From Nitratireductor luteus (GTDB lineage: Bacteria > Pseudomonadota > Alphaproteobacteria > Rhizobiales > Rhizobiaceae), in assembly GCF_026162365.1 (NCBI RefSeq), contig NZ_JAOANW010000006.1, positions 186,001-250,000 of the forward strand: a stretch of DNA of 64,000 nt. Reading direction: 5' to 3'. The position numbers and the translations under genes were made by a program. Under the pieces are notes generated by a model. It was not told where the DNA came from. It ran no database searches and saw only the letters and a program-made list of their open reading frames with translations. Shown in pieces: positions 2,864 to 42,784 of this stretch (position 1 is the stretch's first letter; each line of letters begins with the position of its first letter).

Positions 2864-2870
2864 CCTCCGT

Positions 2871-3647: not shown

Positions 3648-3701
3648 TTTTGAAACACCTTTTTTGTCTTCCACCCGCAATTTGCGCGCCAGCAAAATGC
3701 T

Positions 3702-4475: not shown

Positions 4476-5479
4476 CAGAGCGCGTCTCCTTCTTGATTGA
4501 ATTTGTGCACCCGGCCGTCGACCGGCGTCACGAAGACGCTGTCGCCATGCCGCATGCCGACCTCGCCATCGGCACGCACGGTCAGCTGACCGATGCCGTC
4601 CACGTCCACGTCCACGTGCAGGAAGGTGTCGGAGCCAAGATGCTCGGCGATGCCCACCTTCCCTTTCCACAGACCCTCGGTCGTCGAAAGCTGCAAGTGC
4701 TCCGGCCTGACGCCGACGGTCACGGCACCCAGCTTCTCAGCCTCCGCGCCCGTGATCAGGTTCATGCGCGGCGAACCGATGAAACCGGCCACGAAAAGGT
4801 TCGTGGGACTGCGGTAAAGCTCCAGCGGCGAGCCCACCTGCTCTATATGGCCGGCATTGAGCACGACGATCTTGTCGGCCATGGTCATGGCTTCGACCTG
4901 GTCGTGCGTGACGTAGATCATTGTGGTCTGCAGCTTGTGGTGCAACTCGCTGATCTCGAGCCGCATGGAGCCGCGCAGCGCCGCGTCGAGATTGGACAGC
5001 GGCTCGTCGAACAGGAAAGCCTTGGGCTCGCGCACGATGGCGCGCCCGATGGCGACTCGCTGGCGCTGGCCACCCGAAAGTTGGCCTGGCCGTCGCTCGA
5101 GATAGTCGGTGAGATTGAGGATGCGCGCCGCATCGCGCACCCTCTCCTCGATCGCGGACTTGTCCATGCCGGCCATCTTCAGCGGAAAGGCGATGTTGCC
5201 GAAGACGCTCATGTGCGGATAAAGCGCATAGGATTGGAACACCATGGATAGCCCGCGCTTGGCCGGCGCGCGGGCGGTCATGTCCTCGCCGTCGATGAGG
5301 ATCTTGCCACTCGTCGTGTCCTCCAGACCCGCGATCAGCCGAAGCAGGGTAGACTTGCCGCAGCCGGAGGGTCCGACAAAGACAACGAACTCGTTGTCGG
5401 CGATGTCGAGATCGATCTGCGGAATGACGACCGTCGAGCCGAAAGACTTGTGCACCTTGTCGAGGCGGATTTCTCCCAT
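4475..5479 (-). CDS. smoK: Polyol ABC importer ATP-binding protein SmoK
   Basis: A 334-residue ATPase of the MalK/UgpC type. Walker [10 protein letters not shown] is near residue 36, the Q-loop is [10 protein letters not shown], the ABC signature is [16 protein letters not shown], Walker B is [12 protein letters not shown] and the switch is THDQ. A C-terminal TOBE/MalK-type regulatory domain of about 100 residues follows (VGVRPEHL). It energises the SmoF/SmoG permease pair from the cytoplasmic face. It lies 12 bases downstream of smoG and overlaps smoS. The architecture is standard for CUT1 importers, and specificity for polyols is taken from the operon. Confidence 0.93.
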
Positions 5480-28236: not shown

Positions 28237-29142
28237 CTAACCTTTCACTCCGCCCGTCGAGATGCCCTCGATGAAATACTTCTGCGCCAGGAAGAACACG
28301 ACGAGCGCGGGCATCAACGCCAGCACGGACATAGCCAGGATGCGGTTCCACTGGAACGCCTCGGTCGTGTCGATCGACAGTTTCAGGGCCAGCGAGATGG
28401 GATATTTGTCGACCGAGGACAGGTAGATGAGCGGACCCAGAAAGTCGTTCATGGTCCACATGAACTGGAACAGGCAGACCGAGATCAGCGCCGGCGCCAG
28501 CATCGGCACGACGATATAGATCAGCGTCTGCAGCGTGTTGGCCCCGTCGACGCGGGCGGCCTCCTCCATGTCGCGCGGTATGGCCCGCAGGAACTGGATC
28601 AGCATGAAGACGAAGAACGCGTCTCCCGCGAAGGCCGACGGCACCCAGAGCGGCAGGAAGGTGTCGAGCCAGCCAAGATCACGGAACAGCAGATAGTGTG
28701 GAATGCGCGTGACCACGTTGGGCAGGAGCAGCGTCGCGATGAGCGTGGCGAAGAGGATCTTCTTGCCTGGAAACTCGAAGCGGGCAAAGCCGTAGGCCAC
28801 GGCTGCGCAGGAGATGGCGGTACCGATCGTCTTGGGCAGGATGATGAGGAACGTGTTCCAGAAGAAGGTCGCGAACGTATAGGGCGTCGAGGTCTTCCAG
28901 CCTTGGATATAGCCGTCGATCGTGGGCTCCTGCGGGATGAAGCCGGGATTGGTGAAGATCTCGGAATTGGTCTTGAAGGAGGCGCCGATCAGCCAGATCA
29001 GCGGGTAGAGCATGATGAAGCCGACGCCCGCCAGGAGGAAGTAGCGCACGGCCGATGAGATCACGTGCATGCGCCGGCTTTCGATATGCGCGCGTGCGGT
29101 TTCGAGTTCGGCGGCGGCGGGGACGGCGATCTCCTGTGTCAT
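28237..29142 (-). CDS. Pectic-oligosaccharide ABC importer permease (TogN/MalG-like)
   Basis: A 301-residue permease. A cytoplasmic N-tail of about 30 residues precedes the first helix YFLLAGVGFIMLYPLIWLIGASF. Six membrane segments can be counted, with the EAA loop EEAARVDGANTLQTLIYIVVPMLAPALI and the QKYFIEGISTGGVKG end typical of MalG-type CUT1 subunits. ATG 29142 lies 2 bases after the preceding permease stop; the long frame upstream is not used. It pairs with the permease at 29145-30029. Confidence 0.92.
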   Translation of the reverse strand: MTQEIAVPAAAELETARAHIESRRMHVISSAVRYFLLAGVGFIMLYPLIWLIGASFKTNSEIFTNPGFIPQEPTIDGYIQGWKTSTPYTFATFFWNTFLIILPKTIGTAISCAAVAYGFARFEFPGKKILFATLIATLLLPNVVTRIPHYLLFRDLGWLDTFLPLWVPSAFAGDAFFVFMLIQFLRAIPRDMEEAARVDGANTLQTLIYIVVPMLAPALISVCLFQFMWTMNDFLGPLIYLSSVDKYPISLALKLSIDTTEAFQWNRILAMSVLALMPALVVFFLAQKYFIEGISTGGVKG

Positions 29143-29144
29143 CG

Positions 29145-30029
29145 TCAGCTCCTCTTGTCCCCGGCGTAGTAGACCCAGTGGCGCGACGACCAGAAGGCGA
29201 TCAGCGTCAGCACCATGATGATGGCGAACAGCACCCAGGCGATCGCCGAGGCGTAACCCATGTCGAACTTCTTGAAGGCTTCCTCGTAGATGTAGAGAGG
29301 CAGGAGGTAGGTCGATTTCAGCGGCCCGCCCTGGGTGATGACGTAGGGGCCGTTGAACTCCTGGAACGCCTGCACCATCTGCATGATCAGGTTGAAGAAG
29401 ATGACCGGCGTGATGAGCGGCAGCGTGATGTAGACGAAGGTATGCCACTTGCCAGCCCCGTCGATCGCCGCCGCCTCATAGAGCGTCTTGTCGATGCTTT
29501 GCAGCGCGGCGAGGAAGATGACCATGGCCGAGCCGAACTGCCACAGGCGCAGCAGCGTGATGGTGAAGAGCGCATTGTCGGGATCGCCGAACCAGTTGAC
29601 CGGCTCGCCGCCAAGCGCCGTGATGACCATGTTCACCAGACCGGAATCGGCGAAGATGTAGCGCCACAGCACCGCCACCGCGATGGATCCGCCGAGGATC
29701 GACGGCACGTAATAGGCCGTGCGGAAGAAATTGATGAATTTCAGCCGATAGTTCAGGATATACGCGATGAACAGCGCGAAGACGAGCTTCAGCGGCACCG
29801 TCAGGAGCACGTAGAGAAGCGTCACCCTCAGCGATTTCCTGAAGGTCCGGTCGCGCGTGAACAGTTCCGTGTAGTTGTCGAGGCCCGACCATCGCGGCTT
29901 GCTCAGCAAATCGTAGTCGGTAAAGCTGAGATAAAAGGACGCGATGAACGGGATCGCGGTAAAGATCAGCAGCCCGGCAATGTAAGGCGCGACATAGGCA
30001 AGGCCGAGATATCTGCTGTCGCCGCCCAT
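29145..30029 (-). CDS. Pectic-oligosaccharide ABC importer permease (TogM/MalF-like)
   Basis: A 294-residue permease with six hydrophobic segments starting at YLGLAYVAPYIAGLLIFTAIPFIASFYLSF. The F-T-D-Y-D-L motif follows the first helix, and the EAA loop is YEAAAIDGAGKWHTFVYITLPLITPVIFF. The ATG overlaps the stop of the GH4 gene as TGATG, giving translational coupling between enzyme and transporter. Its specificity comes from the operon context. Confidence 0.92.
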   Translation of the reverse strand: MGGDSRYLGLAYVAPYIAGLLIFTAIPFIASFYLSFTDYDLLSKPRWSGLDNYTELFTRDRTFRKSLRVTLLYVLLTVPLKLVFALFIAYILNYRLKFINFFRTAYYVPSILGGSIAVAVLWRYIFADSGLVNMVITALGGEPVNWFGDPDNALFTITLLRLWQFGSAMVIFLAALQSIDKTLYEAAAIDGAGKWHTFVYITLPLITPVIFFNLIMQMVQAFQEFNGPYVITQGGPLKSTYLLPLYIYEEAFKKFDMGYASAIAWVLFAIIMVLTLIAFWSSRHWVYYAGDKRS

Positions 30030-31423
30030 CAGCCGGCCCTTTTCAACGCTTCCGGAAGGAACTCGGCCGTAGCCGCCACCATCTGGCCGAACAGGTCGCG
30101 AGCCTTGTCGGGGCCGAGAGGAGCGACCAGCGGGTCGCTGAGGAACAGCGGGAACAGATCGTCCCGCCGGCCCTCGATAACCGCCGCGACCAGTGCGGTC
30201 TGGCGCTCGGCATGCGGCTTGACGATGAGCTCCAGCGCCTCGGGCAGTCGGCCCGAATGCAGCGGCTGGATTCCGGCGGGAGAGAACCGGGCGTTGGTTT
30301 CCACCACGACGCCCTCGGCAAATCCCGAAAGCTGGCCGCGATTGGGCAGGTTGACGTTGGTCACGTGCGCCGCGCCGCCGGCCAGAGCCTTGATCTCTGC
30401 CACCAATGCCTCCTCGGACGCGGCGAGCGGAGGCAAAGGCGCGCCGGCATCGAGCTCAGCCGCCGCGCGGCGTTTCTCATCCCGCTCGCGCATGCGGTAG
30501 TCCACGGGCGTCAGCCCGAAGCCGAATTCCTCGTTGCGGTCGAGATACCAGGTCTGGGGCACGAACTCGGCCAGGTGCCGGTCCCCTGCCGCCGCGGCAA
30601 TGCCGAACCGCGAGGCAAGGTCGAACTTGACCATGTTGTGGTCCAGGAAGCAGCGCTCCTGCTCGTTGCCGGGATCGATCGGCGTCGCGCGCCAGCCGGA
30701 CGCGCGATGGGTCCGGGCGAAATCCAGATAATCCTGCAACATGTCGACACCGCCGACCACGGCGCGGTCGACGAAGGTGAAATGGTTGATGCCGAGCACA
30801 TTCACCTCGACATCGCGGAAGCTGTAGCTGACGCTGCCCGCCTTGCGGTTGGCGAGCCATGCCACGATGTGCCGCAGCTTCGTCACCTCGTGGCACTCGC
30901 CCCACGCCTTGATGCCCGGGAAAACGGCGTAGAGCGCCCCCGTCAGCACCGACATCGGATTTGTAAGGTTGCAGACATAGGCATCCGGGCAGCAGGCCCT
31001 GATCGATTGCGCTATCTCCGCCAGCATGGGAATGGACCGCATGGCGCGCACGAAGCCGCCCGGCCCGACCGTGTCGCCGACCGACTGGCGGATGCCGTAG
31101 CGTTCCGGCAGGGCGATGTCGGAGGCCATCGTCTCCAAAGTGCCCGGCAAGATCGAGATGACGACCACATCGGCACCGTCGAGCGCATCCTCGATGCGCT
31201 CATGCGCCGTATAGCGGGCGGGCTTGCCCTTGCCGGCCTGCGCTATGCGCCGCCCGAGACGGGCGTTTCGCTCGGCGGCGGCGAGATTGATGTCGTAGAG
31301 GCGCATGTCGACGGCCAGCGTGCCGTCCTGGGCGATGTCGCCCATCAGTTTGGTCGCCCAGTTGAGCGAACCTCCGCCGATATAGGCTATCGCAAGGCTC
31401 TTTTGATCTTCAAAATCATGCAT
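30029..31423 (-). CDS. Glycoside hydrolase family 4, probable alpha-galacturonidase
   Basis: A 464-residue NAD- and Mn-dependent glycosidase. The Rossmann motif IAYIGGGSLNWATKL lies at residues 12-26, then VISILPGTLETM, CNLTNPMSVLTGALY (substrate and cofactor Asn152), and the metal ligands Cys177 in WGECHEV and His214 in GINHFTF. Among GH4 enzymes, the GGGSLNW-x-x-x-LMGD start and IRQSVGDTVGPGGFVRAMRSIP resemble LplD-type alpha-galacturonidases more than alpha-glucosidases. It would cleave galacturonate from imported pectic oligomers by an oxidation-elimination mechanism. First gene of the operon; no strong ribosome site is visible. Divergent from the AraC regulator. Confidence 0.87.
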   Translation of the reverse strand: MHDFEDQKSLAIAYIGGGSLNWATKLMGDIAQDGTLAVDMRLYDINLAAAERNARLGRRIAQAGKGKPARYTAHERIEDALDGADVVVISILPGTLETMASDIALPERYGIRQSVGDTVGPGGFVRAMRSIPMLAEIAQSIRACCPDAYVCNLTNPMSVLTGALYAVFPGIKAWGECHEVTKLRHIVAWLANRKAGSVSYSFRDVEVNVLGINHFTFVDRAVVGGVDMLQDYLDFARTHRASGWRATPIDPGNEQERCFLDHNMVKFDLASRFGIAAAAGDRHLAEFVPQTWYLDRNEEFGFGLTPVDYRMRERDEKRRAAAELDAGAPLPPLAASEEALVAEIKALAGGAAHVTNVNLPNRGQLSGFAEGVVVETNARFSPAGIQPLHSGRLPEALELIVKPHAERQTALVAAVIEGRRDDLFPLFLSDPLVAPLGPDKARDLFGQMVAATAEFLPEALKRAG

Positions 31424-31533: not shown

Positions 31534-31551
31534 GAGACAGTATTCTGTCTC
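31534..31551. promoter_or_regulatory. Perfect dyad in the GH4/AraC intergenic region
   Basis: GAGACAG (31534-31540), TATT, CTGTCTC (31545-31551) is a perfect 7+7 inverted repeat located between the divergent GH4 and AraC genes, about 38 bases before the regulator's start codon. AraC proteins usually bind direct repeats, so another repressor may act here. Confidence 0.5.
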
Positions 31552-31588
31552 ACGCGTCCATTTGAAATTGACGAATCTGGAAAAAGGG

Positions 31589-32515
31589 ATGGACAAAACT
31601 GAAGGTGGCGTTCTGGCCGGCATCCCGGAGAACGCCCTGAAGCTCAACCTGACGCGCTCCGCCATCAAGATGCAGCACCCGCGGACATGGCGCGTCGACA
31701 AGTCGAACACCGTTCACGACCTCATCGTGTGCCTGAGCGGTAGCGGCAGCTATGTCGTCGACGACAGCGCCTACACGCTGACGCCGGGCGACGCCATGCT
31801 GATACCGGCCGGCAGCCATTTCGTCGGCTGGCACGCTTCCGGCGAGGCCTATACGGGCGTGGCGCAGCACTTCACGCTCGACGTCTTCGGCAGGCACGAC
31901 CTCATCTCGCAGATGCGCATCGAGCGGATCGTGCGCTTTTCGCGCTGGCCGCTGCTGGAACCGGTGATCCGCTACTATCACGACATCGCCCCTGCATCCT
32001 CGACGACACTCCTGCAGCACCATCTCTTCATGTTCATCCTGATCGAATTCCTGGAGGATGCCTTCATCGCCTGGAACACACCGCCGGTGGGCGCCGTGAG
32101 CACCGCCGACGGCATCTCGCTCAGCATCATGCTGGCCGCCGCCCGGATAACGGCCGAGCCGCTCGACGAGGATATCTGCGAGCGCGTCGTCGCCGAGGCG
32201 CCCTACAACCCCGAATATTTCAAGCGGGAGTTCCGCCGCCAGATCGGCTGGACGCCGAGAAAGTTCCAGGAGTTCAAAAGGATGGAGCGGGCCATGAACA
32301 TACTCGCCAGCGGCAACACGGTGAGCGACACCGCCGCCCTCGTCGGCTATTCCGACGTCTATTACTTCTCGCGCATGTTCAAGCGCCACATCGGGACCAG
32401 CCCGGTCGGCTACAAGCTTGCCGTCAAGGAAAGCCAGAACGGCAGGTTCCCGCGCGGCGAGGAAGACGGCCAGGTCATGTATCCACTGGTGGAACGGCAG
32501 GAACAAACCCTGTAA
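31589..32515 (+). CDS. AraC-family transcriptional regulator
   Basis: A 308-residue regulator. The N-terminal cupin-like sensing domain has VHDLIVCLSGSGSYVVDDSAYTLTPGDAMLIPAGS at about residues 40-80. The C-terminal ~100 residues carry two helix-turn-helix motifs, the second in VSDTAALVGYSDVYYFSRMFKRHIGTSPVGYK. ATG 31589 follows GGAAAAAGGG; the TTG at 31562 would give an extended form without a ribosome site. It is divergent from the pectin-oligomer operon and is its likely activator, sensing a pectin breakdown product. Confidence 0.9.
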   Translation: MDKTEGGVLAGIPENALKLNLTRSAIKMQHPRTWRVDKSNTVHDLIVCLSGSGSYVVDDSAYTLTPGDAMLIPAGSHFVGWHASGEAYTGVAQHFTLDVFGRHDLISQMRIERIVRFSRWPLLEPVIRYYHDIAPASSTTLLQHHLFMFILIEFLEDAFIAWNTPPVGAVSTADGISLSIMLAAARITAEPLDEDICERVVAEAPYNPEYFKREFRRQIGWTPRKFQEFKRMERAMNILASGNTVSDTAALVGYSDVYYFSRMFKRHIGTSPVGYKLAVKESQNGRFPRGEEDGQVMYPLVERQEQTL

Positions 32516-32530
32516 CCGGCGACCTGCGAC

Positions 32531-33451
32531 CTACATCGCGGCAAGCGCCGATACCGCCTTGACAGCGGCCGAGGCGCGGTTTTCCACACCCAGCTTGACA
32601 TAGACCTGTTCCAGATGCTTGGTCACGGTGCGCGGACTCAGGTCCAGTATCTCGGCGATATCCCGGTTGGTCTTGCCGCGCGCGACCCACATGAGAACCT
32701 CGCTTTCCCGGTGGGTGAGCGCGAAATGCCGGCGCAACACCTCGTCCTGCCGGTCCTCGCCCTTGCTCAGGAGGCGGAACAGGAACTCGTCCTGCCCGAT
32801 CTGGCCGAGACACACGAGTTCGAATCGCCTGGTCCCGCTCACCGGAATATCGAGGGACTTGCCCAGCGGCGGGGTGCCGGCATGCGCCGCCATCCATTGC
32901 GCGGCGGCCTGGACTATTGCCTCAGGCGCATCCGGGCCGGCTTCCGGGGCCTCCAGCAGCCGGCTCGTCTGCGGCGTCGACCAGAGGATGTTGCCGGCCG
33001 CCGACAGGGCAAGCAGATGCCGGCCTGCGGCATCGAGCGCCAACCGGGTGCTTTGTGCCCGCCTGGCGTTGACCAGATGCACCCTCATGCGCGCGCGCAG
33101 CTCTTCCAGATTGATCGGCTTCGTCAGATAATCTACGCCGCCCGAATCCAGTGCATGAACGACATGCTCGGTCTGTGTCAGTCCGGTCATGAAGATCACC
33201 GGAATGTGGGCGGCCGTGGTGTGCCCCTTGAGCCGCCTGCAAGTCTCGAAACCGTCGAGACCCGGCATGACGGCGTCCATGAGAATAACATCGGGGCTGA
33301 TCTTGTCGACGATGTTCAGCGCCGCCTCGCCACTCGTTGCGACCAGCACCGTCACCCCCGCCTGCTCCATCGCGGTGGTCAGAAAGCCCAGCGTTTCGGG
33401 CGAATCATCGACAACCAATACGATTTCGCCAGCCGGCTCGCGATCATCCAT
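32531..33451 (-). CDS. LuxR-type response regulator (REC - sensor-like linker - HTH)
   Basis: A 306-residue regulator. The receiver domain is at about 8-125, with acidic pocket Asp15/Asp16, phospho-acceptor Asp59 in VILMDAVMPGLDGFE and Lys111 in YLTKPIN. A middle region of about 110 residues (LALDAAGRHLLALSAAGNILWSTPQTSRLL...) looks like a degenerate PAS-like domain. The LuxR/GerE helix-turn-helix is at about 243-300 (LTHRESEVLMWVARGKTNRDIAEILDLSPRTVTKHLEQVYVKLGVENR). It overlaps the sensor kinase by 8 bases and is surely its partner; divergent urtA is the obvious target. Confidence 0.92.
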   Translation of the reverse strand: MDDREPAGEIVLVVDDSPETLGFLTTAMEQAGVTVLVATSGEAALNIVDKISPDVILMDAVMPGLDGFETCRRLKGHTTAAHIPVIFMTGLTQTEHVVHALDSGGVDYLTKPINLEELRARMRVHLVNARRAQSTRLALDAAGRHLLALSAAGNILWSTPQTSRLLEAPEAGPDAPEAIVQAAAQWMAAHAGTPPLGKSLDIPVSGTRRFELVCLGQIGQDEFLFRLLSKGEDRQDEVLRRHFALTHRESEVLMWVARGKTNRDIAEILDLSPRTVTKHLEQVYVKLGVENRASAAVKAVSALAAM

Positions 33452-36400
33452 CGTGCTTCAAGTTCTCCAGAATATCTTGGTAGCCGACGAAGTCATACAC
33501 GTCCATGCGCGCGCGCAGAAGGCCGACCAGTGGCTGGTTGGCGCTCTCTTGGGAAAGAATCTCGAGCCGCTCCTCGATGGCGCGAACGTGGCCTATCTCG
33601 CCGAGCCTGACGAGTTCGTCGACATGATCCCGGCCGGGCGATCGGAATTCGGCACCGGCGCGTGCCGTCTGCCCCGGCCGGGTCAACGCGCTCTTGTCGT
33701 CAATCGTCCAGTTCAAATTCAAATGCGCCTCGATCCGGTCCAGTAATTGCCGAAAGCCGAACGGTTTTGCGATGGCGTCGTCAGGCCCCACTTCGCCCCG
33801 GAAGGCCGCCACGCCATCGCCGATATTGGCCGAAAGCATGACGATGGGCGCGGTCATGCCCCCGGTGCGAAGGCGCTCGGCCAGCTCCCAGCCGTTCATC
33901 CCCGGCATCAGGATATCGATGAAGAACATGTCGGGCGCAATGCCTTCGAGCAGCGTCAGGCAGGCGGGACCGTCCGCGGCTGTCAGCACCGTGAAGTCGA
34001 GCGGTTGCAGCATCTGCCGCATCATCTCGCGATGGTCGCCATTGTCGTCGACCACCATGATAGTGCGGCGGCGGCCGGTGTAGCCGGTGGTCCGCCGCTC
34101 ATGGGTGGCCGGCACCGGCGGCCGGTCGACCTTGGTAAGCATCAGCCTCACGTGAAAGCTCGAGCCTTTCCCCGGTTCGCTTTCGACCCGTATTTCTCCG
34201 CCCAGCGTCTCGGTCAGAAGCTTGGTGATGGTCAGGCCCAGCCCGAGCCCCGGCGAGAGCCGGTTGCGCTCCGCCTTGCCGCGGGCGAAAGGTTCGAAAA
34301 TGTGGTCGAAATCGTCGGCTCCAATGCCCGGCCCGGTGTCGCTTACCGAAAATCCGGCCACCTGCGAGCGGTAGCTGACCTTGAATTCGACGCGGCCTTT
34401 CTCGGTGAACTTGATCGCGTTCGAAAGCAGGTTCACCAGGATCTGGCGCAGCCTTTTGTCGTCGGCACGCACGAACTGAGGCACCCCGCGCTCGCGCTCA
34501 TGGATGAAGGTCAGTCCTTTCGCTTCCGCCTGCAGGCGGAACATGTCCACGATCTGATCGAGGAAGTCGTGAAAATTGACCTCGCTCATATGAAACTGGA
34601 GGCGCCCGGCCTCGATCTTGGAAATATCCAGAAGACCGTCGATCAGGCCCGAAAGATGCTCCGCACTGCGCCTGATCACGCGGATGGAGGAAGCCCAGGG
34701 CTTCGGCGCGTCTTCTTCGCGTTCGAGGATCTGCGCATAGCCGAGGACCGCGTTGAGAGGCGTGCGCAATTCATGGCTCAGCCCCACGACATACCGGCTC
34801 TTCGCCTTGTTGGCGGCTTCGGCCTTCTCCTTGGCCTGCTGCAGGGCGGCATCGGTCTTTTCGTGAGCGGCGATCTCCTTCAGGAGAAGCGTGTTCTGGC
34901 GCGAGCTTTCCTCCTCGGCGACCAGCCGGCTATCACGGGCCAGCACCAGGAACCAGGTGACGATGCCCGCGACCACACAGAAGACGAAGAAGACCACCGC
35001 GATGGTGCCCCCCACGATGTCGGCCGTTTGGGGAGCGGCTCTGGCGGCGGCGGCATAGATCATGAGCAGTATCGCGCCGATCAGCATGACCGCAATGCCC
35101 ATGGCGATCGCATAGCGCCCAAGGCGCGTGCCCAGCCAGGCCAGCACCCGTTCCGGCAGGAAATGTCGCGCCACCGTCGCCGTCTGCGCCTTCAGGCGGG
35201 CATGCGGCTTGCAAAGATCATGACAGCGCGCGTCGAGCGAACAGCACAAGGAACAGATCGGTGCGGCATAAGCCGGGCACCACGCCATGTCCTCCAGCTC
35301 GAAGGGATGCTCGCAGATCGAGCAGGTAAGCGTGCCCTCGCCCTGCCATCCTTTGCGCGGCTTGCGTGCCAGGTAATATTTGCCGCCGGTCGCATAAGCT
35401 ATTGCCGGGGCTGCAACGAAGGCTGCGCAAAGGGCGATGTAGGGAGCAAATGCCGCCGCCATGTCGCCGAAGGCGCCGAAATGGGCTGCGAGCGCAATGC
35501 CCGCCGATAGCGACATGGAGCCGGGTCCCACGGGATTGATGTCGTAGAGATGCGCCCGCTTGAACTCGATGCCGGCAGGTGCCAGACCAAGCGGCTTGTT
35601 GACGAACAGATCGGCCGAAACGGTGCAGAGCCAAGCCATGGCGACGATTGAGAAGATGGCCAGCGTCGCTTCCAGCATGCGGTAGATGCCAAGCTCCATC
35701 AGGAAGAGCGCGATCGCCACATTGAACAGGAGCCAGACGACCCGGCCGGGATGGCTGTGCGTGAGCCGCGAAAAGAAGTTCGACCAGGCGAGCGATCCCG
35801 CATAGGCGTTCATCACATTGATCTTGAGTTGGCTGACCACCACGAAGATCGCCATCAGCACCAGAGCCAGCATCTCGTTCGGGATCATGTAGCCGAACGC
35901 CGCAGCATACATCTGCGCCGGCTCGGATGCATGTTCCGGTGCGACGCCGGAGGAAAGCACGAGCACGGCAAGAAACGAGCCTGCAAGCAGCTTCGGTGCG
36001 CCGACGATCACCCAGCCCGGCCCGGCGAGGAATACCGCCAGCGCGTGGCGCTTTTTCGAGTGCTCCTTGGCGGGAAGGAACCGCAGGAAGTCCACCTGCT
36101 CTCCGATCTGCGTCATCAGCGCGAGGATCACGGCAGAGGCAGCGCCAAACTTGACCAGTTCCAGCGCCGGGATACCTTCGCCAGCCGCAACGCCAATGCC
36201 GCCAAACGACCGCCAGACATCGAATGCGTCCCAGTCGACCCAGGCGATGAACAGGAAAGGCAGGATGTTGAGCACGATCCAGACGGGCTGTGTGAGCAAC
36301 TGGAAGCGGCTGATCAGCCTCACGCCATGCGTCACCAGCGGAATGACGGCGACCGCGCTGACGATGTATCCGATCCAGAGCGGAATGCCGAACGCCAGCT

Positions 36401-36821
36401 GAAGCGCGCTCGACATGATCGAGGCCTCGATCGCAAAGAGGATAAAGGTGAAGCTGGCGTAGATAAGCGAGGTGACCGTCGAGCCGATGTAGCCGAACCC
36501 CGCCCCGCGTGTCAGCAGGTCGATATCCAGGCCATGCCGCATCGCATAGCGCGAGATCGGCAGGCCTACGACCAGGATGACGACGCTGGCGACGATGATC
36601 GCGGCAATCGCGTTGCTCGTGCCGTAGGAAAGCGTGATCGCCCCGCCGATCGCCTCCAGCGCCAGGAACGAGATGGCGCCGATGGCCGTCTGCGAAATGC
36701 GCCGGCTGGAGAATTGCCGGGCGCTCTTGGCGGTGAAGCGCAGGGCGTAGTCTTCGAGAGTCTGGTTGGCGACCCAGCGGTTATACTGCCGCCTGATAGG
36801 TAGGATCCGCTGCCGCGCCAT
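33444..36821 (-). CDS. NCS1-type transporter / Cys-rich domain / histidine kinase / receiver fusion
   Basis: An 1125-residue hybrid sensor. Residues ~20-490 form about twelve membrane helices resembling NCS1 purine-cytosine/allantoin permeases (SRRISQTAIGAISFLALEAIGGAITLSYG; MTQIGEQVDFLRFLP). Residues 500-537 carry eight cysteines (500, 503, 515, 523, 526, 527, 533, 537), a possible zinc or iron-sulfur site. Two further helices span ~570-630. Then come a HisKA domain with His683 (LSHELRTPLNAVLGYAQIL), a HATPase with Asn801 and Asp828 (DTGPGIG), a receiver with Asp969 and Lys1019, and a helical C-terminal tail that may act in phosphotransfer. It lies upstream of and overlaps its LuxR-type regulator, and is divergent from urtA. 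A transporter-like sensor for urea or another nitrogen compound is the natural inference. Confidence 0.92.
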   Translation of the reverse strand: MARQRILPIRRQYNRWVANQTLEDYALRFTAKSARQFSSRRISQTAIGAISFLALEAIGGAITLSYGTSNAIAAIIVASVVILVVGLPISRYAMRHGLDIDLLTRGAGFGYIGSTVTSLIYASFTFILFAIEASIMSSALQLAFGIPLWIGYIVSAVAVIPLVTHGVRLISRFQLLTQPVWIVLNILPFLFIAWVDWDAFDVWRSFGGIGVAAGEGIPALELVKFGAASAVILALMTQIGEQVDFLRFLPAKEHSKKRHALAVFLAGPGWVIVGAPKLLAGSFLAVLVLSSGVAPEHASEPAQMYAAAFGYMIPNEMLALVLMAIFVVVSQLKINVMNAYAGSLAWSNFFSRLTHSHPGRVVWLLFNVAIALFLMELGIYRMLEATLAIFSIVAMAWLCTVSADLFVNKPLGLAPAGIEFKRAHLYDINPVGPGSMSLSAGIALAAHFGAFGDMAAAFAPYIALCAAFVAAPAIAYATGGKYYLARKPRKGWQGEGTLTCSICEHPFELEDMAWCPAYAAPICSLCCSLDARCHDLCKPHARLKAQTATVARHFLPERVLAWLGTRLGRYAIAMGIAVMLIGAILLMIYAAAARAAPQTADIVGGTIAVVFFVFCVVAGIVTWFLVLARDSRLVAEEESSRQNTLLLKEIAAHEKTDAALQQAKEKAEAANKAKSRYVVGLSHELRTPLNAVLGYAQILEREEDAPKPWASSIRVIRRSAEHLSGLIDGLLDISKIEAGRLQFHMSEVNFHDFLDQIVDMFRLQAEAKGLTFIHERERGVPQFVRADDKRLRQILVNLLSNAIKFTEKGRVEFKVSYRSQVAGFSVSDTGPGIGADDFDHIFEPFARGKAERNRLSPGLGLGLTITKLLTETLGGEIRVESEPGKGSSFHVRLMLTKVDRPPVPATHERRTTGYTGRRRTIMVVDDNGDHREMMRQMLQPLDFTVLTAADGPACLTLLEGIAPDMFFIDILMPGMNGWELAERLRTGGMTAPIVMLSANIGDGVAAFRGEVGPDDAIAKPFGFRQLLDRIEAHLNLNWTIDDKSALTRPGQTARAGAEFRSPGRDHVDELVRLGEIGHVRAIEERLEILSQESANQPLVGLLRARMDVYDFVGYQDILENLKHDG

Positions 36822-37143
36822 GCCTGTTCTCGTGTCCCCCTGGCGGCCGTCCGCCGCTCGCTCCTCCAGGACGGACCCTTTTCCGCCCGCCAGGCAGCCA
36901 TTGCCTGCCTCTAGATGACTACTTTTTCATCAAGTTCGCAATATGCCAAAAAAATGCGCAGAAGGTGTTTTGAGCCTACCCACATGTTTTCACTGGAAAA
37001 ACGGCGTCCATCGCTCGGGCAGCCTTCCTCAAACATCCTGAACTACGTCGTTCTGCGTATAGGGCACCGCGCGCATTGCGTTCCAGAATTGTTCCCACGG
37101 TCTGCAAGGTCAGGCCTGAAAGAACATTCAGGGGAACAAACAG
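36822..37143. other. Divergent intergenic region, sensor kinase / urtA
   Basis: A 322-base gap without a gene. It includes an AT-rich stretch near 36915-36965 that probably holds the promoters of the two divergent transcripts. I see no clear sigma-54 element, no palindrome of note and no RNA gene. AGGGGAA shortly before 37144 serves as the urtA ribosome site. Confidence 0.5.
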
Positions 37144-38439
37144 ATGAGCATGAAGATGACCCGCCGCGCGGTGATGACCGCTGCATTGGCAAGTTCGATC
37201 TGCCTTTCGGCAGGAATTACCTACGCACAGGAAGAGACCATCAAGGTCGGCGTCCTCCATTCGCTCTCGGGCACCATGGCGATTTCCGAGACGACGCTGA
37301 AGGACACGATGCTCTTCCTCATCGACGAGCAGAACAGGAAGGGTGGGCTTCTGGGCAAGAAGCTCGAAGCCGTGGTGGTCGACCCCGCTTCCGACTGGCC
37401 GCTGTTCGCCGAGAAGGCGCGCGAGCTGATCTCGGTCAGCGACGTGGCGGCGGTATTCGGCTGCTGGACGTCGGTCTCCCGCAAATCCGTTCTGCCGGTG
37501 TTCGAGGAGTTGAATTCGATCCTCTTCTATCCGGTGCAGTATGAGGGCGAGGAGAGCCAGCGCAACGTCTTCTACACGGGTGCGGCGCCCAACCAGCAGG
37601 CCATTCCCGCCGTCGATTACCTGATGAACGAGGAAGGCGTGGAGCGCTGGGTGCTGGCCGGCACCGACTATGTCTATCCGCGCACGACCAACAAGATCCT
37701 CGAGCAGTACCTGATGGACAAGGGCGTGGCCGCCGAGGACATCATGATCAACTACACGCCCTTCGGCCATTCCGACTGGCAGACGATCGTCTCCGACATC
37801 AAGGCGTTCGGCTCGGCGGGCAAGAAGACGGCGGTGGTTTCCACCATCAACGGCGACGCCAACGTGCCGTTCTACAAGGAGCTCGCCAATCAAGGGATCG
37901 CCGCCGAGGACATCCCGGTCGTCGCCTTCTCCGTGGGCGAGGAAGAGCTTGCCGGCATCGACACCGAGCCGCTGGTGGGGCACCTCGCCGCCTGGAACTA
38001 CTTCCAGTCCGTCGACACGCCGGAGAACGAGGAATTCATCGCCAAGTGGCGCGAATTCATCGGCGACGAGAACCGCGTGACCAACGACCCGATGGAAGCC
38101 CATGTGGTCGGCTTCAACCTGTGGGTCCAGGCCGTCGAGAAGGCCGGCACGACCGACACCGATGCCGTGCTCGACGCCATTATCGGCCTTGAGACGCCGA
38201 ACCTGACCGGCGGCATCGCCAAGATGCTCCCCAACCATCACATCACCAAGCCGGTGCTGATCGGCGAGATTCAGGACGACGGCCAGTTCGAGGTGGTGTG
38301 GGAGACGGAAGAGGTGGTGCCGGGCGACGCCTGGTCGGACTTCCTACCGGAATCGAAGATGATCGAGGCGGATTGGACGGCACCGATCAATTGCGGGAAC
38401 TACAACACCGAGACGAAGAGCTGCGGCGGCGCGAGCTGA
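37144..38439 (+). CDS. urtA: Urea ABC importer substrate-binding protein UrtA
   Basis: A 431-residue periplasmic binding protein of the branched-chain amino-acid/amide type. The signal peptide is about residues 1-28 (ending SAGITYAQ). The mature N-terminus ETIKVGVLHSLSGTMAISETTLKDTMLFLIDEQN is a UrtA hallmark, as are VVVDPASDWPLFAEKARELI, VFGCWTSVSRKSVLPVFEELNSILFYPVQYEGEE and GTDYVYPRTTN. It captures urea for UrtBCDE. It is followed by a strong hairpin before urtB. Confidence 0.97.
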   Translation: MSMKMTRRAVMTAALASSICLSAGITYAQEETIKVGVLHSLSGTMAISETTLKDTMLFLIDEQNRKGGLLGKKLEAVVVDPASDWPLFAEKARELISVSDVAAVFGCWTSVSRKSVLPVFEELNSILFYPVQYEGEESQRNVFYTGAAPNQQAIPAVDYLMNEEGVERWVLAGTDYVYPRTTNKILEQYLMDKGVAAEDIMINYTPFGHSDWQTIVSDIKAFGSAGKKTAVVSTINGDANVPFYKELANQGIAAEDIPVVAFSVGEEELAGIDTEPLVGHLAAWNYFQSVDTPENEEFIAKWREFIGDENRVTNDPMEAHVVGFNLWVQAVEKAGTTDTDAVLDAIIGLETPNLTGGIAKMLPNHHITKPVLIGEIQDDGQFEVVWETEEVVPGDAWSDFLPESKMIEADWTAPINCGNYNTETKSCGGAS

Positions 38440-38448
38440 CATTCGAGC

Positions 38449-38473
38449 GGGGAAGGCGGCCGCCGCCTTCCCC
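38449..38473 (+). promoter_or_regulatory. Very strong GC hairpin between urtA and urtB
   Basis: GGGGAAGGCGGC at 38449-38460 and its exact inverse at 38462-38473 lie 10 bases after the urtA stop. A realistic stem is 9-10 base pairs with a short loop. Only a C/A-rich sequence follows, no T-run, which argues for message stabilisation or partial attenuation rather than full termination. Confidence 0.55.
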
Positions 38474-38507
38474 CAATCCCTGATCCCAAACTTTCCGGCC
38501 ACGGCAT

Positions 38508-40124
38508 ATGCACCCGTTCCGCCTCATACCGAAGCTCCTCCTTGCGCTCGCGCTGCTGATCACGGCAGCGCCAGGCGCGTTCGCGCAAGACGTGGAAGCC
38601 CTCGTAAACACCCTGCCTGAAGGCAGCTATTCCGACCGCGAGAAAGTGATCTTCGACCTCGCCGCCACCGGCGACGACCGCGTGGCGAGCATCCTGAAGG
38701 TGCTGGGTGAAGGCGATCTTTATGTGCGGGAAGAGGACGGCCGCGTAGTTGCGGGCAAGCGCGCCGGGCGCGATTATGCGCTGAGCGACCCGCTGACGGG
38801 CGAGGCGCTGGGTGCTGCCCCCTCCTCCGATCTCGACAAGATCCGCGTTAACAACCGCCTGCGCCGCGCCATCCGCAGCGCCATCGGCCAGCTTACTCTT
38901 ATGAGCCCCAGCCCGTCCGTCCGCCTGACGGCGGCGCGAAGCCTGCTCAGGAACGCTGACCCGGACGCGCTGGAACTGCTCGACGAGGCCCTTGCCGCCG
39001 AGACGGATACCGGAGTGAAGACGGTGATGGAGCTGGCGCGGGCCACCACGATCCTGAAGACCGATGCCGGGCTCGACGAGAAGACCGCCGCTATCGATAC
39101 CGTGACCGCCCGCGGCAATCGCGAGGCGCTGGCGGTCCTGACGGCTTCGCTTTCCACCGCCCCATCTGAGCTGACCCCCGCCATCGAGCGGGGCATCGCC
39201 GGCATCGAACGGAAACTGGCCATGTGGGACGGCCTGCAGAACGTCTGGTACGGCCTCTCCCTCGGCTCCGTGCTGCTCTTGGCGGCCATCGGCCTTGCCA
39301 TCACCTTCGGCGTCATGGGCGTCATCAACATGGCCCATGGCGAGATCGTCATGCTTGGCGCCTACACCACCTTCGCCGTGCAACAGGTGATCCGCATCTC
39401 CTTTCCGGGCCTGTTCGACTATTCGCTGGCCATCGCCCTGCCGCTGGCCTTCCTCGTCACCGCCCTTGTCGGCATCGCCATCGAGCGCGGCTTCATCCGC
39501 TGGCTCTACGGCCGGCCGCTGGAGACGCTGCTGGCCACATGGGGCCTGAGCCTGATCCTGCAGCAGACCGTGCGCACCATTTTCGGGCCGAACAATCGCG
39601 AGGTCGGGAACCCCGGCTGGATGTCCGGCGCTTTCGATCTGGGCGGTCTGTCGATCACCTGGAACAGGTTGTGGATCGTCGTCTTCGCGCTCGTCGTCTT
39701 CGCCATCCTTTTGGCCGTGCTGAACCGCACGCCGCTCGGCCTGCAGATGCGCGCCGTCACCCAGAACCGCCGCATGGCATCCTCCATGGGCATCCGCACG
39801 CCCTGGGTCGATGCGCTGACTTTCGGCCTCGGCTCCGGCATCGCCGGCATTGCTGGCGTCGCGCTTTCCCAGATAGACAACGTCTCGCCCAATCTCGGCC
39901 AGAGCTACATCATCGACAGTTTCATGGTCGTCGTCTTCGGCGGGGTCGGCAATCTATGGGGCACGCTTGTGGGGGCGCTGACGCTCGGCGTCGCCAACAA
40001 GTTCCTGGAGCCGTTTGCCGGCGCCGTGCTCGGCAAGATCTTCATCCTCGTCTTCATTATCCTGTTCATCCAGAGGCGCCCGCGCGGTCTGTTCGCGCTC
40101 AAGGGCCGGGCGGTGGACGCATGA
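38508..40124 (+). CDS. urtB: Urea ABC importer permease UrtB
   Basis: A 538-residue LivH-type permease with the long N-terminal extension typical of UrtB. A signal peptide (LLLALALLITAAPGAFAQ) precedes a soluble helical-repeat region of about 200 residues (including TLMSPSPSVRLTAARSLLRNADPDALELLDEAL), then eight or so membrane helices from VWYGLSLGSVLLLAAIGLAITFGVMGVINMAHGEIVMLGAY. The INMAHGE and GLQMRAVTQNRRMASSMGI segments are family signatures. The stop overlaps the urtC start as ATGA. Confidence 0.96.
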   Translation: MHPFRLIPKLLLALALLITAAPGAFAQDVEALVNTLPEGSYSDREKVIFDLAATGDDRVASILKVLGEGDLYVREEDGRVVAGKRAGRDYALSDPLTGEALGAAPSSDLDKIRVNNRLRRAIRSAIGQLTLMSPSPSVRLTAARSLLRNADPDALELLDEALAAETDTGVKTVMELARATTILKTDAGLDEKTAAIDTVTARGNREALAVLTASLSTAPSELTPAIERGIAGIERKLAMWDGLQNVWYGLSLGSVLLLAAIGLAITFGVMGVINMAHGEIVMLGAYTTFAVQQVIRISFPGLFDYSLAIALPLAFLVTALVGIAIERGFIRWLYGRPLETLLATWGLSLILQQTVRTIFGPNNREVGNPGWMSGAFDLGGLSITWNRLWIVVFALVVFAILLAVLNRTPLGLQMRAVTQNRRMASSMGIRTPWVDALTFGLGSGIAGIAGVALSQIDNVSPNLGQSYIIDSFMVVVFGGVGNLWGTLVGALTLGVANKFLEPFAGAVLGKIFILVFIILFIQRRPRGLFALKGRAVDA

Positions 40125-41281
40125 TCACCAGGACCCTGTTCCGCGCCTTCGACGGCAAGGCCAATTGGGTAGTGGCCCTTCTGGCAGTCATCGCCGTCCT
40201 CGTGCCGCTTTCCAACCTTGCCCTGCCCGTCGGCCATCCGCTGCGGGTACCCGATCATTTCGTGCCGCTGTTCGGCAAGTATCTCACCTATGCCATGCTG
40301 GCCCTGGCGCTGGATCTGGTGTGGGGCTATTGCGGCATTCTTTCGCTCGGCCACGGCGCGTTTTTCGCGCTGGGCGGCTATGCGATGGGTATGTATCTGA
40401 TGCGTCAGATCGGCGACCGCGGCGTCTATGCCAACCCTGTCCTGCCGGATTTCATGGTGTTCCTGAACTATGACGCGCTGCCCTGGTACTGGCATGGCTT
40501 CGATATGTTCTGGTTCGCCGCGATTGTGGCGATAGTGGCGCCCGCTGTGCTCGCCTTCGTCTTCGGCTGGTTCGCCTTCCGCTCCCGCGTGACCGGCGTC
40601 TATCTGTCGATCATCACCCAAGCCATGACCTATGCGCTGCTGCTCGCCTTCTTCCGCAACGACATGGGCTTCGGCGGCAATAACGGCCTGACCGATTTCA
40701 AGGACATCCTGGGCTTCCCCATCCAGGCCTCGACGACGCGCGCCGCGCTCTTCGCCGCCTCGGCCATCGCGCTGGCGCTGTGCTTCATCGTCTGCTCGGC
40801 GGTCGTTAATTCCAAGCTGGGCAAGGTGCTCGTGGCCACGCGCGACGCTGAAAGCCGGACGCGCTTTCTGGGTTACCGCGTGGACAACTACAAGCTCTTC
40901 GCCTTCACCGCCTCGGCCATCATGGCCGGCATCGCCGGCGCGCTCTACGTGCCGCAGGTGGGTATCATCAATCCCGGCGAGTTCGCCCCGGCCAACTCCA
41001 TCGAGATCGTCATCTGGACCGCCGTAGGCGGACGCGGCACACTGGTAGGACCAATCATCGGCGCAATCCTCGTCAACGCCGGAAAGTCCTGGTTCACCGG
41101 CGTCTTTCCGGAATTCTGGCTGTTCGCGCTGGGTGGTCTTTTCGTGGCCGTCACCATCTTCCTGCCCAAGGGCATCGTCGGTGCCTTCACCGGCGGCTGG
41201 TCGGCGCTCAAGGCGCGACGCATTTCGGCGAGGGCGGAACAGGGCAGCGACATCGCGCCCGAGCCCTCGCCGGCAGAATAG
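40121..41281 (+). CDS. urtC: Urea ABC importer permease UrtC
   Basis: A 386-residue LivM-type permease. Membrane helices begin at NWVVALLAVIAVLVPLSNLAL; GYCGILSLGHGAFFALGGYAMGMYLMR and ITQAMTYALLLAFFRNDMGFGGNNGLTDFKDILGF are the conserved regions, and VATRDAESRTRFLGYRVDNYKLFAFTASAIMAGIAGALY is the ATPase-contact loop region. ATG 40121 overlaps the urtB stop; a longer frame reading through urtB is a shadow. It completes the channel with UrtB. Confidence 0.96.
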   Translation: MITRTLFRAFDGKANWVVALLAVIAVLVPLSNLALPVGHPLRVPDHFVPLFGKYLTYAMLALALDLVWGYCGILSLGHGAFFALGGYAMGMYLMRQIGDRGVYANPVLPDFMVFLNYDALPWYWHGFDMFWFAAIVAIVAPAVLAFVFGWFAFRSRVTGVYLSIITQAMTYALLLAFFRNDMGFGGNNGLTDFKDILGFPIQASTTRAALFAASAIALALCFIVCSAVVNSKLGKVLVATRDAESRTRFLGYRVDNYKLFAFTASAIMAGIAGALYVPQVGIINPGEFAPANSIEIVIWTAVGGRGTLVGPIIGAILVNAGKSWFTGVFPEFWLFALGGLFVAVTIFLPKGIVGAFTGGWSALKARRISARAEQGSDIAPEPSPAE

Positions 41282-41331
41282 CGGAGTTCACAGATGACGA
41301 AGGGTGCTGGCACTGTGACAGGACTGCTCTC

Positions 41332-42081
41332 ATGAACGCGCGCAACGACACGCTTCTCTATCTCGACGGCGTTTCCGTCTCCTTCGACGGCTTCAAGGCG
41401 ATCGACAACCTGTCGCTCGTCGTGCGGCACAACGAGCTCCAGGCGATCATCGGCCCCAATGGCGCGGGCAAGACGACGATGATGGATATCATCACCGGCA
41501 AGACGCGGCCAAACGAGGGCGAGGTCTATTTCGACGGTTCGGTGGACCTCACCAGGCTCGACGAGGCGGCCATCGCGGAGCTGGGCATCGGCCGCAAGTT
41601 CCAGAAGCCGACGGTCTTCGAAAGCCACACGGTGCGCGACAATCTGGAACTGGCGCTCAAAAAGCCGCGTGGCGTGTTTTCGGCCTGGTTCTATCACGCA
41701 GACGATGAGGACGAGACGCGCCTGGACGAGATCCTCGAGACCGTGCGCCTGACCCACCGTCAGCACAATCTCGCGGCCAATCTCAGCCACGGCCAAAAAC
41801 AGTGGCTGGAGATCGGCATGCTGCTGGCGCAGGATCCGAAACTGCTCCTGGTGGACGAGCCGGTCGCCGGCATGACGGATGCCGAGACCGTCGAGACGGC
41901 GAAGCTCCTCAAGGCGATCTCTCAGACACGTTCTGTGATGGTGGTCGAACACGATATGAGCTTCATCCGCGATCTGGCCGCCCGCGTGACGGTGCTGGCC
42001 GAAGGCTCGGTGCTGGCGCAGGGCAGCCTCGATCACGTCAGCGCCGATCCTCGCGTCGTGGAAAGCTATCTGGGAAGATAA
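41332..42081 (+). CDS. urtD: Urea ABC importer ATP-binding protein UrtD
   Basis: A 249-residue LivG-type ATPase. Walker A is GPNGAGKTTMMDIITGK, with IGRKFQKPTVFESHTVRDNLELAL. The signature is LSHGQKQWLEIGMLLAQ (His in place of the second Gly, normal for UrtD), and Walker B is LLLVDEPVAGMTDAE. It starts 51 bases after urtC, a slightly larger gap than elsewhere in the operon. Confidence 0.96.
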   Translation: MNARNDTLLYLDGVSVSFDGFKAIDNLSLVVRHNELQAIIGPNGAGKTTMMDIITGKTRPNEGEVYFDGSVDLTRLDEAAIAELGIGRKFQKPTVFESHTVRDNLELALKKPRGVFSAWFYHADDEDETRLDEILETVRLTHRQHNLAANLSHGQKQWLEIGMLLAQDPKLLLVDEPVAGMTDAETVETAKLLKAISQTRSVMVVEHDMSFIRDLAARVTVLAEGSVLAQGSLDHVSADPRVVESYLGR

Positions 42082-42082
42082 T

Positions 42083-42784
42083 ATGACCGCTCTCTCCGTC
42101 GACAGCATCGACCTCCACTACGGCGCGGCACAGGCGCTGCGCCGCGTCAGCGTCGAGGCTGCTCCCGCCCGGATCACCTCCGTGCTCGGGCGAAACGGCG
42201 TTGGCAAGTCCTCGCTCCTGCGGGCTATTGCCGGTGTTCATCCAGTCACGAGCGGCCAGATATCGATCGCGGACCAGGCGCTGAAGAACGCCCCGCCCTA
42301 TCGGCGCGCCCGGTTGGGCCTCGGTTATGTCCCGCAAGGGCGCGAGATTTTCCCGCTGCTGACGGTGAAGGAAAACCTGATGACCGGCTACGCGCCGTTG
42401 AAACCATCGGATCGTTCCATACCCGAAACAGTGTTTACGCTATTTCCCGTCCTCAAGCAGATGCTGTCGCGGCGCGGCGGCGATCTTTCCGGCGGTCAGC
42501 AGCAGCAGCTCGCCATCGGACGCGCGCTGGTGACCCGCCCCAAGGTGCTCATCCTGGACGAACCGACTGAAGGCATCCAGCCTTCGATCATCAAGGACAT
42601 TGGCCGCGCGCTGCAGTTCCTTCGCGACGAGCTCGGCATGACCGTTCTTCTGGTAGAGCAATATCTCGACTTCTGCCGCGAACTGTCGGATCGTATCTAC
42701 ATCATGGACCGCGGCGAAATCCTGCATTCAGGACCGGCCAGCGACCTGGACAAGGCCGAAGTGAAGCGGCATCTGACGGTGTGA
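42083..42784 (+). CDS. urtE: Urea ABC importer ATP-binding protein UrtE
   Basis: A 233-residue LivF-type ATPase. Walker A is GRNGVGKSSLLRAI, then LGYVPQGREIFPLLTVKENLMTGY, the signature DLSGGQQQQLAIGRALV and Walker B VLILDEPTEGIQPSII; the end DLDKAEVKRHLTV is typical of UrtE. It begins one base after the urtD stop. No urease genes follow in the window; the next genes face the other way. Confidence 0.96.
   Translation: MTALSVDSIDLHYGAAQALRRVSVEAAPARITSVLGRNGVGKSSLLRAIAGVHPVTSGQISIADQALKNAPPYRRARLGLGYVPQGREIFPLLTVKENLMTGYAPLKPSDRSIPETVFTLFPVLKQMLSRRGGDLSGGQQQQLAIGRALVTRPKVLILDEPTEGIQPSIIKDIGRALQFLRDELGMTVLLVEQYLDFCRELSDRIYIMDRGEILHSGPASDLDKAEVKRHLTV

Follow-up and report, generated by a model that had tools for sequence, protein, structure and literature searches.

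A transporter-like hybrid sensor kinase divergent from urtABCDE in Nitratireductor luteus: a candidate NCS1-like receptor for urea and short-chain amides

Introduction

What does a sensor kinase perceive when its N-terminal part is shaped like a transporter and its gene diverges from a urea importer operon? The question is raised by a stretch of 64,000 nucleotides of Nitratireductor luteus (NCBI RefSeq assembly GCF_026162365.1, contig NZ_JAOANW010000006.1, positions 186,001 to 250,000 of the forward strand), here called the window. In the window, a hybrid sensor histidine kinase gene overlaps a LuxR-type response regulator gene by 8 nt and is separated by 322 bp from a divergent urtABCDE operon (37144-42784, forward strand), whose five genes all score above their NCBIfam cut-offs. 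The original prediction had described a 1125-residue protein joining a permease-like module, eight cysteines between residues 500 and 537, two more membrane helices, a HisKA-HATPase core and a receiver, and had noted both the overlap and the divergence; the open reading frame call, Pfam, NCBIfam, hydropathy and an AlphaFold model bear out this architecture and this gene arrangement. With HisKA, HATPase_c and receiver domains recognised by Pfam and a regulator gene adjoining, the protein belongs to the hybrid kinase class.

We consider it probable that this protein is an NCS1-like transceptor histidine kinase for urea or short-chain amides, controlling the urt genes through the LuxR-type regulator. 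The permease-shaped domain would bind urea and/or a short-chain amide, and the ligand-driven change of shape would move the cytoplasmic eight-cysteine tail, probably with two zinc sites, from which the HisKA/HATPase core would receive the signal by way of the two extra membrane helices. H683 would hand its phosphate to the receiver of the same protein, to the LuxR-type regulator, or to both; the positions of H683 and D969 were computed, and we take these residues to be candidate phospho-acceptors from the motifs around them. The regulator, phosphorylated directly or through the receiver, would then bind a palindrome, TACGY-N6-RCGTA, just upstream of urtA and turn on the urea/amide importer and, in some relatives, also fmdA or amiE.

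Fusions of transporter and kinase are already known, as the original prediction had noted, and those in print carry SLC5 or Amt domains. The literature searched contained no NCS1-like sensor kinase, none with this linker or this target, and no description of this protein class, nor any receptor for urea or formamide driving urt operons; most subscription journals were outside its scope, which leaves the absence unproven. The palindrome and its link to the kinase-regulator pair and to urtA are new here. The system offers a concrete candidate for a urea/amide receptor, complete with partner regulator, operator-like site and testable residues, and it would be an independent case of a LeuT-fold pump turned receptor, with material for comparison both in its fused and free forms and in tails whose cysteines number from four to eight.

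The permease module

Hydropathy and the AlphaFold model place a many-helix module up to about residue 480, then a short-stranded cysteine segment and, behind it, helices 566-595 and 597-649. The model of the permease region was built from 12 sequences and reaches a predicted local distance difference test score (pLDDT) of 74.7 and a predicted template modelling score of 0.74, residues 1-45 being poor. Its best match in the VIA structure comparison is CodB (Z 32.9, 393 aligned residues, root mean square deviation 3.2), 5.8 above the best row from a family other than NCS1 (Z 27.1), and Mhp1 (Z 26.6 to 24.5) is on par with several other LeuT-fold families (Z 22-27). In Foldseek, rows 1-5 are all Mhp1 and CodB, with E values from 7.3e-9 (top row, Mhp1) to 2.0e-6, so that the likeness to Mhp1-type permeases anticipated in the original prediction is found in the predicted structure.

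At the sequence level the connection to NCS1 runs through a kinase-free permease of 497 amino acids (L155), which matches the window module with 31% identity (E 3.8e-31; hhalign 99.8%) and lies above the Pfam cut-off for PF02133 (36.4 vs 23.5 bits); with TIGR00800 it scores 59.4 bits, under the cut-off of 353.1. The family profile matches the single CodB sequence weakly (probability 7.3%), and PF02133 is absent from the profile search of the whole window genome. Because the profile fails on the module while its free homologue L155 passes PF02133, we call the module NCS1-like, on the basis of predicted fold and bridging homologue, and not a formal member of the NCS1 family; of the NCS1-type label given earlier, the fold thus stands and the profile-based membership does not. 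The module shares with Mhp1 and CodB the same fold and, unlike them, has no NCS1 profile match and carries a fused kinase and a cysteine tail. The evidence leans against an SLC5 identity, given the Z lead of CodB and the profile-positive NCS1 homologue: no SSS (SLC5) domain is matched by Pfam at E <= 1, a level at which the NCS1 profile fails too, and the best SLC5 row in VIA, CHT1, has Z 25.1 vs 32.9 for CodB.

In a joint alignment D244, R247 and N338 are common to the module, CodB and three NCS1-like homologues, and N335 and E132 are common to the module and three of these four; all five polar residues are conserved in fused and free forms alike. W108 and F204 of CodB, which we take to be substrate residues, have the non-aromatic L128 and about L235 as their counterparts, the second alignment being less sure. 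Other positions separate the two forms: at E56, in helix 1, the fused rows have Glu (97 of 98, the remaining one being a gap) and the free forms Phe (9/10) or Gln (1/10), and R11 and Y13 are common to 96/98 fused rows and to 1/10 free forms.

The eight-cysteine tail

The eight cysteines lie exactly at residues 500, 503, 515, 523, 526, 527, 533 and 537, the nearest others being 465 and 615. The pattern is conserved in all 97 fused homologue loci and is therefore not due to chance. The core formed by C500, C503, C523 and C526 is common to several kinase-free permeases, to which C515, C527, C533 and C537 are added. Free tails have four cysteines (CxxC...CxxC) in Klebsiella, Acinetobacter and Moraxella and five in two Streptomyces, and are mostly lost in three Arthrobacter and in Tsukamurella; among ten free permeases, only that of Methylovirgula has the full eight without a kinase. 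Since kinase-free relatives have the segment in reduced form, sequence comparison identifies it as the C-terminal tail of the permease itself, extended in the sensors. The cysteine segment had been proposed as a metal-binding insert: its metal-binding type is retained here on account of the pattern, and the notion of an insert is given up. A mobile domain was considered as well and rejected: a 51-aa query of the module finds 58 places, spread over 52 of the 398 genomes sampled from the phylum, and comparison by eye shows these to coincide with the 58 places of the fused permease.

The model of the cysteine module consists of strands and a short helix (pLDDT 69.7), and it has no significant fold match, Foldseek giving none at E <= 0.001 and VIA a best Z of 3.1. 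Many, though not all, of the weak fold matches are zinc domains (FYVE, LIM, RING, PHD), and there is a weak sequence match to the zinc protein CRIPT (E 0.57). Judged by the pattern of cysteines, the module likely holds two metal sites, with zinc as the putative metal. For FurE, an NCS1 transporter, contact between the N- and C-terminal tails in the outward-facing state and their separation during transport have been described (PMC6597760); by analogy, such a movement could offer a ready mechanism for a sensor coupled through its tail.

Homologues and their gene neighbours

The sample consisted of 398 genomes of Pseudomonadota, the phylum of the window. Matches to the module came from 59 of them. 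After removal of seven genomes whose matches were all weak (E above 1e-14), the count stood at 58 fused places, with one free permease (G252:C40) listed apart. Of the 52 strongly matching genomes, 51 also encode UrtA. In the distance count, which used 77 UrtA rows and left out those on other contigs, far off or low-scoring, urtA is no more than 20 kb away from 50 of 58 fused kinases (45 divergent, five on the same strand), or from 51 places once the free permease is added, and the synteny with urtA suspected from the window therefore extends to its relatives. The remaining eight are beside urease (four), before fmdA-fmdB (two) or at contig ends (two). Thus 56 of 58 adjoin urt, urease or formamidase genes and the other two are the contig ends. 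Divergent pairs of kinase and urtA occur, for example, in Rhizobium, Klebsiella, Chelatococcus, Peteryoungia, Methylosinus and a Rhodobacteraceae, and the closest named relatives of the kinase belong to Devosia, Rhizobium and Pleomorphomonas (69-79% identity).

A wider map comprises 99 loci, 97 fused (the window, L059, included) and two free, many from the same genera and so not independent. Urt, urease, formamidase or amidase genes are found in the stretch read in 94 of the 99, the exceptions being L033, L035, L049 and the two contig ends; the labels are BLAST matches to a few reference proteins, among which the amidase references can cross-hit. On plasmids, 525 of 72,556 records match the permease-cysteine region, 342 of them from Klebsiella, and one such Klebsiella record contains urtABCDE, formamidase, the kinase and its regulator; Sinorhizobium meliloti megaplasmids are likewise among the matching records. 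The Klebsiella urt/formamidase cluster has been discussed as a urinary fitness trait in a paper whose main text lacks the terms histidine kinase, response regulator and two-component (PMC13060141).

Several loci depart from the common arrangement. Contig C14 of the window genome carries a paralogous system (L054; 56% in the permease module), which comes with a regulator of its own, fmdA-fmdB and a second operon of urt type; given this paralogue, the genome may devote a separate sensor to each substrate class. L033 and L035 are versions of 1395 and 1396 amino acids beside a receiver-HD response regulator in place of the LuxR-type one, which suggests a cyclic di-GMP output; L033 has two receivers and an Hpt domain and adjoins nifE. 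L147 and L148, of 885 and 894 amino acids, are followed by fmdA-fmdB, and their kinase core is too divergent for the BLAST reference; by eye they have no receiver.

Palindrome upstream of urtA

The gaps between kinase and urtA gave 66 intervals, with an extrapolated length of 60-900 bp and approximate distances, the gene starts being extrapolated; the other 31 fused loci were examined separately. An inverted-repeat search returned TACGT-N6-ACGTA in 34 of the 66, where the best repeat of any kind reached at most 3 in each of 20 mononucleotide shuffles. The relaxed form TACGY-N6-RCGTA occurs in 51/66 intervals (first-order Markov null: mean 0.1, maximum 2 in 100 draws), and a leave-one-out matrix exceeds its 99% null in 50/66. 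By a matrix built without the window, the window site scores 16.5 (99.9% null, 12.1). Matrix hits number 46 inside the intervals vs 9 in 1.36 Mb outside. The control consisted of 20 urtA genes, chosen by hand from 35 over the cut-off without a kinase within 20 kb in the same genomes; the relaxed palindrome is upstream of one of the 20, and none exceeds the 99% matrix null. The strict form TACGYMRNNYKRCGTA, a pattern defined after the window site had been inspected, matches the window genome once in 4.9 Mb, at 37044-37059, and its backward control matches 7 times per strand.

The site follows urtA: where other genes separate it from the kinase (10 loci), the palindrome stays about 76-97 bp before urtA, and where urt is not divergent (four loci) it is about 85-119 bp before it. 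Among the 31 further loci, copies are upstream of fmdA in seven and of amiE in one. Altogether, the kinase, urtA, fmdA, amiE or urease genes are preceded by a site at no more than 700 bp in 71 of 97 loci. These positions suggest, as far as sequence can tell, that the palindrome ties the partner regulator to urtA, and hence the kinase to control of the urt genes. One residue in what is presumably the recognition helix of the regulator varies with the site: loci of the TACGT type mostly have Asn there (28 of 30), those of the TACGC type Asp or Thr (10 of 12). This correlation is a modest sign that the regulator may read the palindrome. A sigma-54 promoter was also looked for: its loose pattern matched in four of the 66 intervals and not in the window.

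Kinase-free permeases

Six of eight kinase-free permeases with annotated neighbours lie by fmdA (Moraxella, Tsukamurella), aliphatic amidase (Arthrobacter U41, Methylovirgula) or urease genes (Acinetobacter, Klebsiella), and those of Arthrobacter NicSoilB11 and Streptomyces angustmyceticus are without any of these three as neighbours. The permeases in the urease loci of Klebsiella (L196, 4971-6578) and Acinetobacter (L195, 4980-6587) are annotated as cytosine or allantoin permease and are candidate urea transporters. In Methylovirgula, the eight-cysteine permease without a kinase (L197, 5944-7593) is by an aliphatic amidase gene and next to a fused kinase (1260-4721) with its regulator; it could be either an intermediate or a truncated sensor. 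On a quick tree, the 10 free forms are one clade (support of 96 in the Shimodaira-Hasegawa-like approximate likelihood ratio test) amid the fused ones, in accordance with one change, and as the outgroup branch is extremely long, gain of the kinase is indistinguishable from loss.

Ligand and alternative explanations

Urea and short-chain amides are more likely ligands than nucleobases or allantoin, because the neighbours are urt, urease, formamidase and amidase genes and the CodB aromatic positions are non-aromatic here. Permease names aside, the annotated neighbourhoods examined contained no purine or pyrimidine gene, and this, together with the replacement of W108 and F204 by L128 and about L235, makes a nucleobase or allantoin the less likely ligand. 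Neighbours of amide type have a parallel in Pseudomonas veronii, which has amiE-fmdA-fmdB-urtABCDE with no amiC or amiR in the locus as described and grows on formamide and acetamide, and for which uptake of formamide by the transporter was suggested (PMC13209695).

Three other explanations have been weighed. The kinase could be bifunctional, its module still importing urea or an amide and kinase activity following transport, a mode also proposed for CbrA: E132, D244, R247, N335 and N338 are kept in both forms, and CbrA is described as a single functional protein uniting the two roles of transporter and kinase (PMC13022988, PMC7096432); the charged E56 of the fused forms, Phe in the free ones, suggests an altered gating, and we hold this variant, which is compatible with the transceptor reading, to be possible though unlikely. 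That the cysteine module is the real sensor, of a metal or of redox state, and the permease module a mere anchor would fit the eight cysteines kept in all fused loci, but the permease-site residues are equally conserved, the neighbours are urea/amide genes and none is of metal or redox type, and reduced cysteine tails occur in permeases without any kinase; we regard it as improbable. Equally improbable, in our judgement, is a kinase that senses general nitrogen status, or ammonium derived from urea, rather than the substrate: urt can track the nitrogen source generally, urtA-E of Paracoccus denitrificans being reported as induced on nitrate vs ammonium (PMC5424462), but the kinase pairs with substrate-specific genes whose type switches repeatedly between urease and formamidase/amidase, and the palindrome is confined to urea/amide genes in the loci read.

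A number of results weigh against the transceptor reading itself. In the window kinase PF02133 has no Pfam match at E <= 1, at E <= 10 neither the window segment nor any of 11 relatives has one listed, and NCBIfam has no match for residues 1-600. The N-terminal motif N-X-D/S-hydrophobic-X-P, reported to precede the first helix of NCS1 proteins (PMC6597760), was not seen by eye in the alignment, where the window protein has NQTLEDYALRF, without proline. The cysteine-module model is of low confidence, and it and the permease model each come from 12 sequences. In three loci (L033, L035, L049) the stretch read holds no urt, urease or fmd neighbour, and urease-type and amide-type neighbours switch at least 6 times on the quick tree, so that one fixed ligand is unlikely. 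The stricter form of the palindrome is in only 26/66 intervals (null maximum 0), and the relaxed form was not found near the tested starts in 26/97 loci, the own-genome paralogue L054 included. Among mixed sites, to which that of the window belongs, the regulator residue is Asp or Thr in three of nine, and the correlation of residue and site comprises only two or three independent changes.

More broadly, we see about an even chance of a larger picture. The fused proteins would then be a widespread and so far undescribed class of urea and short-chain amide receptors, built as NCS1-like transceptor kinases whose C-tail works as a two-metal switch, and controlling the importer via one palindromic operator. 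Their kinase-free sisters near urease, formamidase or amidase genes, among them the annotated cytosine permease of a Klebsiella pneumoniae urease locus, would be urea/amide transporters of a branch not yet recognised, either ancestral to the sensors or derived from them by loss of the kinase.

Comparison with known systems

The closest parallels are the SLC5/STAC kinases CbrA, CrbS and RpuS, which are described as having, like the window protein, an N-terminal transporter domain fused to a histidine kinase; CrbS and the two S. fredii proteins are hybrid kinases too, and CrbR and RpuR are LuxR-family regulators, as is the partner in the window (PMC5715377, PMC9100948). CrbR is reported to require an imperfect inverted repeat just upstream of the promoter (PMC5715377), a parallel to the window palindrome. 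Unlike these kinases, the window protein has an NCS1-like transporter domain, by fold and bridging homologue, its type has urt, fmd and urease neighbours and a different palindrome, and in place of a recognised STAC it shows the eight-cysteine module and two helices. The STAC four-helix linker had no Pfam match in the kinase, and whether Pfam models STAC is unchecked. Ks-Amt5 is likewise a nutrient transporter turned into a kinase-fused sensor of a small nitrogen compound; in the description of it, the Amt domain is followed directly by DHp and CA, with no cysteine module or receiver, unlike the window protein (PMC5764959).

Probable members of the same kind have been listed before. Ectopseudomonas guguanensis has a second urtABCDE with a LuxR-family two-component regulator, and a hybrid histidine kinase in a figure legend (PMC13296017), and a table for Dechloromonas aromatica gives a 1131-aa histidine kinase and a 308-aa receiver protein beside UrtA (PMC2907700). 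In these accounts they appear merely as kinase and regulator, with no permease module, cysteine module, operator or function given (PMC13296017, PMC2907700); from size and place, we infer that they are of the same kind as the window pair.

The locus in the window

The coordinates are collected in Table 1.

Table 1. Features of the kinase-urt locus, in window positions; residues are those of the kinase.
Feature	Position	Strand	Basis or remark
Response regulator, receiver and GerE (LuxR-type)	32531..33451	-	Pfam; 8-nt overlap with kinase end
Hybrid sensor histidine kinase, transporter-like	33444..36821	-	1125 aa, ATG start
Receiver (Response_reg), residues 921-1031, D969	33729..34061	-	Pfam
HATPase_c, residues 787-895	34137..34463	-	Pfam
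HisKA, residues 674-739, H683	34605..34802	-	Pfam
Two extra membrane helices, residues about 566-630, leading into a long helix	34932..35126	-	Hydropathy and AlphaFold model
Eight-cysteine module, residues 500-537	35211..35324	-	Model pLDDT 69.7
NCS1-like permease module, residues about 21-487	35361..36761	-	AlphaFold model and structure matches
Palindromic operator-like site TACGTCGTTCTGCGTA	37044..37059	.	84 bp before urtA ATG
urtA	37144..38439	+	TIGR03407, 563.5 bits, cut-off 492.75
urtB	38508..40124	+	TIGR03409, 429.5 bits, cut-off 250.3
Open reading frame containing urtC	39224..41281	+	TIGR03408, 440.6 bits, cut-off 296.2
urtD	41332..42081	+	TIGR03411, 378.1 bits, cut-off 304.1
urtE	42083..42784	+	TIGR03410, 329.1 bits, cut-off 285.8

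The true start of urtC is probably near 40.2 kb, since the homologous part begins at about residue 341 of the open reading frame. UrtB (38508-40124) is extended at its N-terminus by a long stretch, where residues 125-173 match a HEAT repeat slightly below the Pfam cut-off. Urease genes are downstream of urtE in six of eight same-genus loci, unlike in the window, and the window urt genes were ruled out as part of a urease operon, as the single urease-alpha match of the genome is on another contig. On the far side of the regulator, an open reading frame of 318 amino acids (31550-32506) has no Pfam match, and the opposite strand is open there too (31562-32515); beyond the regulator on the same side are also a family 4 glycosyl hydrolase (30029-31423) and a sugar-type ABC permease (28237-29448).

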